From contig JANYDS010000084.1 in NCBI GenBank assembly GCA_025363475.1, positions 1 through 64,000 on the forward strand: a stretch of 64,000 nt of DNA, in the 5' to 3' direction. This document shows positions 3,088 through 8,675 of this stretch, in pieces. The position numbers and the translations under genes are program-made. The DNA comes from Terriglobia bacterium (GTDB lineage Bacteria; Acidobacteriota; Terriglobia; Bryobacterales; Bryobacteraceae). Each line of letters opens with the position of its first letter. Position 1 is the stretch's first letter. The notes under the pieces were generated by a model, which ran no database searches, had not been told where the DNA came from, and was given only the letters and a program-made list of their open reading frames with translations.

Positions 3088-4278
3088 ATGACCATTTCCG
3101 CGTCCCGTCACCGTCGGGACTTCCTGCGGTTCCTGGCAGCCAGTCCGCTGCTGGCCAAGGCTCTCGGCAACAGTGCGTTTGCCCAGGACAACAGCATCAT
3201 CGCCAGTGCCAAAGATGCCCTGAACATCATGGATTTCGAAGCAGCGTCCAAAAAAGCCCTGCCGCCCGCCCATTGGGGTTACATGGCGACAGGCGTAGAA
3301 GACGACGCCACCTTGCGCCTCAATCACGACGCTTACAAGAACATCCAGCTCCGCCCGCGGCGTTTGATTGATGTCAGCAAAGTCGATACGTCGGTCAACA
3401 TTTTCGGCACCACCTGGGAAACGCCGATTTTCATCTGCCCGGTAGGCAGCCAGAAGGCCTTCTATCCGGCAGAGGGTGAACTGGCCACAGCCCGCGCCGC
3501 CCGCGCCAAAAAGCACCTGCAGATTCTTTCCACCCAGACATCAACTCCGGTGGAAGATGTCGCGAAAGCCCTCGGCCAGCCGCCCTGGTATCAGCTCTAC
3601 ATGCCACTCACATGGGATTCAACTGAGAAACTGGTCAAGCGCGTGGAAGATGCCGGCTGCCCCACGCTCGTCTGGACCATCGATCTGCTGGGCGGCCGCA
3701 GCACCGAAACCCAGGAACGTTTCCGCCGTCAGGACACGCGTGATTGTACGCAGTGCCACACTTCAGCACGCGGCGGTTCCATGGCGAAACCCAAGCCGAT
3801 GTTCCGCGATATTCCGCAGGGCTTCAATCCTCCCGAAGCCACCTGGGAATATGTTGACCGCTTAAAGAAGCTCACCAAAATGAAGCTCATTCTCAAGGGC
3901 ATTGAGACCGGCGAAGATGCGGCCCTCGCAAGGCAGCACGGTGTGGATGGAATTATCGTTTCGAACCACGGCGGCCGTGCCAACGAAGATCTGCGGGCAA
4001 CCATCCAGTCACTTCCGGAAGTCGTGGAAGCAGCAGGCGGGCAGATTCCCGTGATGGTTGACGGAGGTGTCCGGCGCGGCGCGGATGTATTTAAAGCACT
4101 GGCCTTGGGTGCCACGGCTGTTGGAATCGGGCGACCTTATATCTGGGGTTTAAGTGCGTTCGGGCAGGAAGGTGTAGAGAAAGTGCTGGAGTTGTTGCGG
4201 GCGGAACTGAGCCTCACCATGCGGCAAATCGGAACAACATCAGTGAAGCAGATCACACGAGCGGCAATTAAGATCTAA
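3088..4278 (+). CDS. Tat-exported FMN-dependent alpha-hydroxy-acid oxidase/dehydrogenase with a CxxCH motif
   Basis: About 396 residues of the glycolate oxidase / lactate dehydrogenase / flavocytochrome b2 family, which oxidise 2-hydroxy acids to 2-keto acids using FMN. Visible family signatures are CPVGSQKAFYP, WYQLYMP, the active-site block SNHGGR (catalytic His, substrate Arg) and VDGGVRRGADVFKALALGA for FMN phosphate. The N-terminus RHRRDFLRFLAASPLL is a twin-arginine signal, ending AFAQ, so the protein is probably folded with FMN and exported. Unusually, the central loop contains CTQCH (Cys220, Cys223, His224), the form of a heme c attachment site. I prefer the ATG at 3088; a GTG at 3079 is also in frame. 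Substrate cannot be named from sequence. Confidence 0.9.
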   Translation: MTISASRHRRDFLRFLAASPLLAKALGNSAFAQDNSIIASAKDALNIMDFEAASKKALPPAHWGYMATGVEDDATLRLNHDAYKNIQLRPRRLIDVSKVDTSVNIFGTTWETPIFICPVGSQKAFYPAEGELATARAARAKKHLQILSTQTSTPVEDVAKALGQPPWYQLYMPLTWDSTEKLVKRVEDAGCPTLVWTIDLLGGRSTETQERFRRQDTRDCTQCHTSARGGSMAKPKPMFRDIPQGFNPPEATWEYVDRLKKLTKMKLILKGIETGEDAALARQHGVDGIIVSNHGGRANEDLRATIQSLPEVVEAAGGQIPVMVDGGVRRGADVFKALALGATAVGIGRPYIWGLSAFGQEGVEKVLELLRAELSLTMRQIGTTSVKQITRAAIKI

Positions 4279-4348: not shown

Positions 4349-4621
4349 CTATTCTTCGTCGTCCTCTTCTTCGTCTTCATCCTCGTCGTCCTCGTCGAGG
4401 TCTTCGTCGTCTTCGTCAGGGTCGTCGTCATCCTCATCAAGGTCTAACTCGTCGAGGTCTTCCTCTTTTTCTTCCTCATCTTCATCTTCTTCGTCTTCGT
4501 CATCCTCTTCTTCGTCGAGGACTTCATCTTCGAGATCGTCGAAACCGATGTCGTCAGGATTGCGCTTCGGTGGACTCATTTCCCACGCCCCGGCGCTTGC
4601 GAAGTTGTTCAGGTACGCCAT
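4349..4621 (-). CDS. Small hyperacidic protein with an Asp/Glu-only tail
   Basis: 90 residues. The first ~30 are ordinary (MAYLNNFASAGAWEMSPPKR...), after which nearly every residue to the C-terminus is Asp or Glu, so the tail must be disordered and extremely negative. A strong Shine-Dalgarno (AGAGGAG, 3 bases from the ATG) supports translation on this strand. The opposite-strand poly-serine reading is its shadow. Function is not recognised. Acidic tails of this kind occur in DNA/histone mimics, metal-binding proteins and the RNA polymerase delta subunit, but no homology is claimed. It is divergent from hslV, with 132 bases between starts. Confidence 0.7.
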   Translation of the reverse strand: MAYLNNFASAGAWEMSPPKRNPDDIGFDDLEDEVLDEEEDDEDEEDEDEEEKEEDLDELDLDEDDDDPDEDDEDLDEDDEDEDEEEDDEE

Positions 4622-7688: not shown

Positions 7689-8675
7689 TTGAAAAGAGAG
7701 ATTCTAATCTCCAGAGTTTTTGCCTTTTTGTTGCTTTCCGCTGTCACCGCTGGATCGGCATCGGCCAATTCATTCGTGATCAACGCGACTTTCGATTCAA
7801 GCATTACGAGTCTGTCGAATGCGCTGGCTATCGAGTCGAGTATTAACAATGTGATCAGTTTCTATGAGGCCACGTTCCTGGATCCCATCTCGGTGAACAT
7901 CACGTTTTCGAACATGACCTCGGGTTTGGGGCAAAGCAGCTTCAATCTATACACCGTCACGTATGCCAATTTCCGTTCTGCTCTGGTGGCCGATAGAACC
8001 AGTGCAGATGACACAACGGCACTGGCTAACCTTGCCGGCGGTGCAGGTAACCCGGTCAACGGCGGAACGGATATCCTGATCAAGTCCGCGACCAGGAAGG
8101 CGCTGGGGTTGCTGTCCGGTTCGTTTGCGGCGAGCGATGGCACTGTTTCCCTCAATACCTCGTTGATGAACATTGACCGAACCGGCGCGCAGAATGCCGG
8201 GCTGTACGATTTGCAGGCAGTTACCAGTCACGAAATCAATGAAATTCTGGGCCTTGGTTCAACGCTTGGGCTGGGCTTGTCGGCACCCTTCAATTCTGAG
8301 CCTTCACCCGAAGATCTTTTCCGTTATGACGGAAGCGGCGGCCGCAGCTTCAATGAAAGCGCAGTGTCTTCGTATTTATCGATCGATGGCACCACCTTGC
8401 TGGCGGCATTCAACCAGAGCAGTGGAGGTGATTACGGGGACTGGCAAACCGCGGGCGCTGCGAAAGTACAGGACGCGTTTGGCACTCCTGGTTCGCAGCC
8501 CAACATGGGAGTTGAGATACGGGCGCTTGACGCAATCGGATACGACGTGGCTACAGCTCCTGAACCTTCCACCTGGCTGCTGATCGCGACGGGCCTCATC
8601 GCCGGAGCAATTTACCGGAAGCGCAAGACGTCTCTGGTGCCGGTACCCGTTGTCGCTCGTTATAATAACGGGTAA
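7689..8675 (+). CDS. PEP-CTERM-sorted putative metalloprotease (NF038122-like)
   Basis: 328 residues read from a TTG start preceded by a GGGGGAA Shine-Dalgarno about 7 bases upstream. A signal peptide ends near SASA. The core INNVISFYEATFLDPISVNITF and the later TSHEINEILGLGSTLG (His181, Glu182) match the PEP-CTERM proteins annotated as NF038122 metalloproteases. In this copy the HExxH third ligand position holds Glu (HEINE). A C-terminal PEPSTWLLIATGLIAGAIYRKRK is a PEP-CTERM exosortase signal, followed by ~15 extra residues. Likely exported and cell-envelope processed; catalytic activity is uncertain. The stop directly abuts the next gene. Confidence 0.75.
   Translation: MKREILISRVFAFLLLSAVTAGSASANSFVINATFDSSITSLSNALAIESSINNVISFYEATFLDPISVNITFSNMTSGLGQSSFNLYTVTYANFRSALVADRTSADDTTALANLAGGAGNPVNGGTDILIKSATRKALGLLSGSFAASDGTVSLNTSLMNIDRTGAQNAGLYDLQAVTSHEINEILGLGSTLGLGLSAPFNSEPSPEDLFRYDGSGGRSFNESAVSSYLSIDGTTLLAAFNQSSGGDYGDWQTAGAAKVQDAFGTPGSQPNMGVEIRALDAIGYDVATAPEPSTWLLIATGLIAGAIYRKRKTSLVPVPVVARYNNG

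Follow-up and report, generated by a model that had tools for sequence, protein, structure and literature searches.

Can an enzyme built on the glycolate oxidase fold carry a c-type heme on its own flavin domain? The question is raised by one gene in a 64,000-nucleotide stretch of DNA from a Terriglobia bacterium (hereafter the window), whose predicted product is an FMN-dependent 2-hydroxy-acid dehydrogenase with a twin-arginine (Tat) signal peptide and a CxxCH motif, the attachment sequence of heme c. We examined the fold and active site of this protein, the conservation and phylogeny of the motif among its homologues, and the readings other than heme that the same residues would allow.

The window protein and its loop-4 motif

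The gene opens with an ATG at 3088, and its stop codon ends at 4278. A Pfam profile search of the 396-residue protein matched the FMN_dh family (PF01070) over residues 55-394 with E=2.5e-114; it returned no Cyt-b5 match, the N-terminus being a signal peptide, and no known cytochrome c domain. Counterparts of the glycolate oxidase (GOX) residues Y24, Y129, D157, K230, H254 and R257 are all present as Y65, Y171, D199, K270, H294 and R297 (Table 1), so that ordinary FMN oxidation of an L-2-hydroxy acid would be expected. The counterpart of GOX R164 varies, being Arg in the window protein and Ser in many members of the CxxCH clade described below, and so does not fix the substrate.

An AF2 model from 83 aligned sequences gave a mean pLDDT of 90.5, averaging 90 over residues 211-220 and falling below 50 at 226-232. 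It replaced a poor first model from 19 sequences, in which loop 202-232 was below 50. The best solved match of the predicted fold was spinach glycolate oxidase (1gox; Z 48.2, rmsd 1.7, 339 residues), with flavocytochrome b2 next at a Z of about 45.7.

Table 1. Features of the dehydrogenase gene and their positions in the window
Feature	Position	Strand	Basis or conservation
Whole gene: FMN-dependent 2-hydroxy-acid dehydrogenase, predicted Tat-exported, loop-4 CxxCH	3088..4278	+	396 aa + stop
Twin-arginine signal peptide, residues 1-32	3088..3183	+	RR at 9-10; likely cleavage between AFA and Q, inferred from AxA
His62, proposed distal axial heme ligand	3271..3273	+	96/96 CxxCH proteins vs 3/68 others
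Tyr65 (= GOX Tyr24, Fcb2 Tyr143), active-site Tyr	3280..3282	+	alignment
Tyr171 (= GOX Tyr129), active site	3598..3600	+	alignment
Asp199 (= GOX Asp157), active site	3682..3684	+	alignment
C220-T-Q-C223-H224, proposed heme c attachment site and proximal ligand	3745..3759	+	C, C, H 96/96
Met238 in conserved [KR]PM downstream of CxxCH, second-choice distal ligand or pocket residue	3799..3801	+	Met 68/96, Asn 20/96
Arg258, clade-specific, possible heme-propionate partner	3859..3861	+	R 94/96, K 2/96; W or F in most others
Lys270 (= GOX Lys230), FMN site	3895..3897	+	alignment
His294 (= GOX His254, catalytic base) to Arg297 (= GOX Arg257, substrate carboxylate)	3967..3978	+	invariant in homologues examined

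The signal is of the Tat rather than the Sec type, and an exported location is predicted from the sequence. The twin arginines (SRHRRDFLRFLAASPLLAKALG...AFA/QD, the slash marking the likely cleavage site) sit within RHRRDFLRFLAASPLL, upstream of that site, and TatC is encoded in the same genome. The hydrophobic core of the signal, FLAASPLL (window 3118-3153, residues 11-22), is unusually conserved for a signal peptide and is kept even in relatives lacking the CxxCH (FLISSPLL, FLAGSPLL); this core might do more than direct export, or the signal might be left uncleaved. Some tens of extra residues separate the signal from the barrel in one subgroup of homologues (L015-L020, L050, L054, L055), and this stretch contains a CxxCG resembling half a zinc knuckle (CPDCGQDM in L017).

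Only four cysteines occur in the protein (117, 191, 220 and 223), and the last two belong to CTQCH, which is located in loop 4 between Asp199 on beta4 and Trp253 at the loop's end. Loop 4 (RRQDTRDCTQCHTSARGGSMAKPKPMF) is mostly polar, and its sequence is unlike the hydrophobic, membrane-inserting loop 4 of the mandelate dehydrogenase/LldD type. The original prediction, made from the letters of the DNA, had described a twin-arginine signal, a CTQCH at Cys220-Cys223-His224 and its placement in a mobile loop, and our analysis agrees with it on all three.

The gene is flanked by a miaB-like gene on the minus strand and, downstream, by an hslV/hslU-like pair on the plus strand (named from their translations); no cytochrome gene adjoins it. 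Across 22 loci we found no conserved neighbour, a cytochrome partner included, only scattered genes, and gene neighbourhood was set aside as a functional clue. Among these, two Acidobacteria (L032, 9287-10231; L033, 6173-7219) have, some 110-120 bases downstream and in the same orientation, a gene for a secreted HpcH/HpaI-type aldolase that possibly acts on the 2-keto acid product, and an HbpS/GlcG-like gene (PF03928; L031, 4087-4509, minus strand) converges on the dehydrogenase gene at a distance of 10 bases. Within the window, a convergent 90-residue open reading frame directly downstream (4349-4621, minus strand) encodes a C-terminal part made almost wholly of Asp and Glu, its opposite strand reading as a poly-Ser frame, and a secreted protein at 7689-8675 (plus strand) ends in APEPSTWLLIATGLIAGAIYRKRK..., a PEP-CTERM-like sorting tail.

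Conservation and origin of the CxxCH group

Homologues were collected by searching 297 genomes from the phylum, which yielded 30 fetched loci, and by a public genome scan and three further group searches, giving 164 distinct proteins in total. The CxxCH occupies the same loop in every fetched phylum homologue of at least 45% identity except one (L021), and none of the distant ones (35-43% identity) has it there. Over the whole set, 96 of the 164 proteins carry the motif at the loop-4 site. Pairwise identity among these 96 has a median of 49% and goes down to 38%, and yet C220, C223 and H224 show zero entropy, with 12 and 13 different residues occurring at the two x positions and no constraint on residue 225. 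Invariant C, C and H combined with free x positions suggest a heme c signature rather than a structural motif.

Family composition predicts about 5e-4 CxxCH per protein by chance, and the motif occurs nowhere in the 68 homologues outside the clade. The coincidence that the original prediction had kept as an alternative is ruled out by this expectation set against conservation in 96/96. The same prediction had asked whether both cysteines and the histidine are invariant together with Tat signals: all three residues are, and the twin arginines are present, by sequence, in 94 of the 95 full-length clade members.

CxxCH members are found in Acidobacteriota, Gemmatimonadota, Alpha-, Gamma- and Deltaproteobacteria and a Verrucomicrobia MAG; named confirmed sources include Acidobacteria (Bryobacterales, Sulfopaludibacter), Gemmatimonadota, a Verrucomicrobiia MAG, Gammaproteobacteria, a Deltaproteobacteria MAG, Bradyrhizobium lablabi and Afipia. 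A copy with the motif, the His and the Met also resides on a 2.8-Mb replicon of Methylobacterium bullatum, outside the 96. Judged by match score (E below 1e-98), with the motif itself read in fetched loci only, close relatives occur in 54 of 249 Gemmatimonadota genomes and 22 of 199 Bradyrhizobium-family genomes; in the class of one gammaproteobacterial carrier, any match at that threshold was seen in only 3 of 369 genomes. Tandem copies stand on one contig (G1015, C147: 399358-400575 and 400738-401952; L160, L173), and genomes G304, G993 and G229 each also have two close relatives.

Phylogenetic reconstruction with IQ-TREE used 80 rows and columns that exclude the signal, loop 4, H62 and R258. 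A branch supported at 100/98 set the CxxCH proteins apart, dividing 55 CxxCH rows from three sister rows. A FastTree analysis of all 164 proteins likewise brought the 96 together with no others inside (local support 0.72) and identified L021, L056 and L146 as their sister lineage (0.99 for the joint group). These three have twin arginines and lack both the CxxCH and H62, and the next group outward (L024, L026, L063 and L077) has twin arginines too. Such Tat-bearing homologues without the motif, which the original prediction had named as evidence against heme, do exist, but every one of them (L021, L056, L146, L024/L026, L063/L077) falls outside the CxxCH branch. They are therefore compatible with heme and indicate that its site arose later than Tat export. 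Because twin arginines appear in successive outgroups without the CxxCH, Tat export most likely came first, with the heme site gained once afterwards. One origin suffices for the whole group, so that H62 and the CxxCH are not independent co-varying events, and the weight of this sequence evidence is their joint invariance after that apparent single origin.

A candidate heme pocket and its alternatives

Besides the twin arginines, the positions that are both clade-specific and invariant or nearly so are H62, C220, C223, H224 and R258; R92 and F358 are similarly conserved, in the CxxCH clade and the sister group alike, and W176 and R211 are enriched in the clade. H62 precedes the active-site Tyr65 by three residues. 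Its distribution, with presence throughout the CxxCH proteins, rarity elsewhere and absence from the Tat-exported sister lineage, makes it the leading candidate for a second axial ligand to the heme. In flavocytochrome b2, Tyr143, the equivalent of Tyr65, touches a heme propionate, and by analogy H62 would be within reach of a heme at the active-site mouth. R258 is distributed in nearly the same way. Together, H62 and R258, neither of which figured in the original prediction, point to a heme pocket. Met238 was considered as a general distal ligand, being invariant in the first 19 sequences, but Asn replaces it in 20 of the 96, and H62 is preferred.

Could these residues serve something other than heme? 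C220, C223, H224 and H62, all invariant, are residues of the kinds that could ligate a CCHH metal site (Zn or mononuclear Fe), which would order loop 4 in a structural or regulatory role and involve no heme. Loop 4 is otherwise flexible in the FMN_dh family, and the subgroup with a further N-terminal CxxCG would suit such a site. We nevertheless consider it highly improbable: one Zn bound by a Cys and the directly adjacent His is uncommon, a contiguous His in CxxCH is the heme c signature, the Gly and turn residues of zinc knuckles are not conserved, and the x positions are free. Alternatively, C220 and C223 might form a redox-active CxxC disulfide beside the flavin, in the manner of Erv-type thiol oxidases, coupling hydroxy-acid oxidation to disulfide reduction. 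Export, the CxxC spacing and a loop over the flavin mouth would fit this, but it leaves the invariant H224 and H62 and the Arg258 change unexplained, and we know of no precedent for a hydroxy-acid dehydrogenase with a thiol acceptor; we regard it as extremely unlikely. Both the metal site and the disulfide explain less than heme c does.

It is also conceivable that heme c is attached for a purpose other than electron uptake from FMN, namely sensing, the handling of O2/H2O2 or stability. Stand-alone heme-c Cache domains, in which CxxCH insertions can act in NO sensing or otherwise, offer a parallel (PMC12889525), and ligation might vary with the Met or Asn at position 238. A loop lying over the active site, an H62 so close to Tyr65 and conserved catalytic residues speak against it, and such a function is very unlikely.

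Proposed heme attachment and mechanism, and relation to known systems

Heme c needs an extracytoplasmic location, and the near-universal twin arginines of the clade therefore count in favour of the heme c reading. The Tat signal is at the same time a point against it, as a review holds that every cytochrome c apoprotein has a Sec signal and is unfolded before ligation (PMC10663686). Tat carries proteins that are already folded, and a redox cofactor is bound by most of its substrates in E. coli (PMC3712460). For CcsBA, only a limited stretch with CXXCH is required for heme attachment (PMC8112865), which makes an exposed loop a plausible substrate. Tat export and heme c ligation would be compatible if the CxxCH lay on a flexible loop of an otherwise folded protein. 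Three PF01578 cytochrome c assembly proteins are encoded in the same genome; PF01578 co-occurrence was dropped as support, since its presence in 44 of 46 searched genomes does not discriminate against a baseline of 75 of 80 phylum genomes.

We infer that the window protein is very probably a periplasmic flavocytochrome c made of a single chain, where the electrons that FMN draws from a 2-hydroxy acid are taken up by a covalent heme c borne on the loop. FMN would be taken up and the protein folded in the cytoplasm before crossing by Tat, after which the cytochrome c maturation machinery would join heme to C220 and C223 on flexible loop 4; H224 would be the proximal ligand and H62 probably the distal one. 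The flavin would oxidise a small L-2-hydroxy acid of the lactate or glycolate type through H294, R297, Y65 and Y171, and the reduced flavin would then release single electrons to a heme positioned at the entrance of the active site, close to the docking position of the b5 domain in yeast flavocytochrome b2. From the heme they would move to a soluble periplasmic cytochrome c or an oxidase; of these the cytochrome is the probable acceptor, as the comparison with flavocytochrome b2 suggests. With a loop-4 heme taking the electrons, O2 would be unnecessary. It seems reasonably likely that this is a natural single-domain flavocytochrome c on the glycolate oxidase fold, formed when a folded, FMN-loaded Tat substrate receives heme c on a flexible loop after export.

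If this holds, one entire branch of a well-known enzyme family would consist of respiratory dehydrogenases that should need no O2 and make no H2O2, giving soil and water bacteria a one-domain route from hydroxy acid to the cytochrome chain. Such a protein would break the rule of Sec-exported, unfolded cytochrome c apoproteins and provide a test case for cytochrome c maturation, namely heme ligation to a folded Tat substrate. It would also provide in natural form the direct electron transfer that biosensor makers now obtain by fusing proteins.

Among known systems, the flavocytochromes c (FccAB sulfide dehydrogenase, p-cresol methylhydroxylase and fumarate reductase Fcc3) bring flavin and heme c together in the periplasm, as proposed here; their flavin folds are unrelated to that of the window protein, they use FAD rather than FMN, and their heme occupies a separate domain or subunit. 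Spinach glycolate oxidase and the PF01070 family share the (beta/alpha)8 fold, the catalytic residues and about 40% identity with the window protein, which departs from them in its Tat signal, loop-4 CxxCH, H62 and R258. To our knowledge, no known PF01070 member has a heme on its barrel. A screen of 122 representatives annotated EC 1.1.3.15 mentions cytochrome b5 fusions and a long mandelate-dehydrogenase-type loop 4, but not heme c (PMC8491902), and we found no earlier report of the CxxCH group or of heme c in this family in the open-access literature, although a report elsewhere is possible. Yeast flavocytochrome b2 (EC 1.1.2.3; 35-36% identity) likewise passes electrons from an FMN barrel to a heme in the same chain. 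That heme is b-type and lies in a separate N-terminal b5 domain (PMC8348568), whereas the window protein has no b5 domain, a CxxCH on the barrel's own loop 4 and a Tat signal.

The heme-c Cache domains (DUF3365/Tll0287; preprint PMC12889525) likewise gained a CxxCH element in a non-cytochrome fold and then conserved it strictly, in a sensor fold rather than a flavoenzyme. Engineered flavin oxidase-heme c constructs, built for direct electron transfer, have the same aim of flavin-to-heme c transfer; among them, an FMN lactate oxidase delivers electrons to the heme c protein with which it is joined (PMC9915066, PMC8348568). Those constructs are man-made and employ a whole cytochrome, whereas the putative site of the window protein is natural and contained in a loop of ~50 residues.
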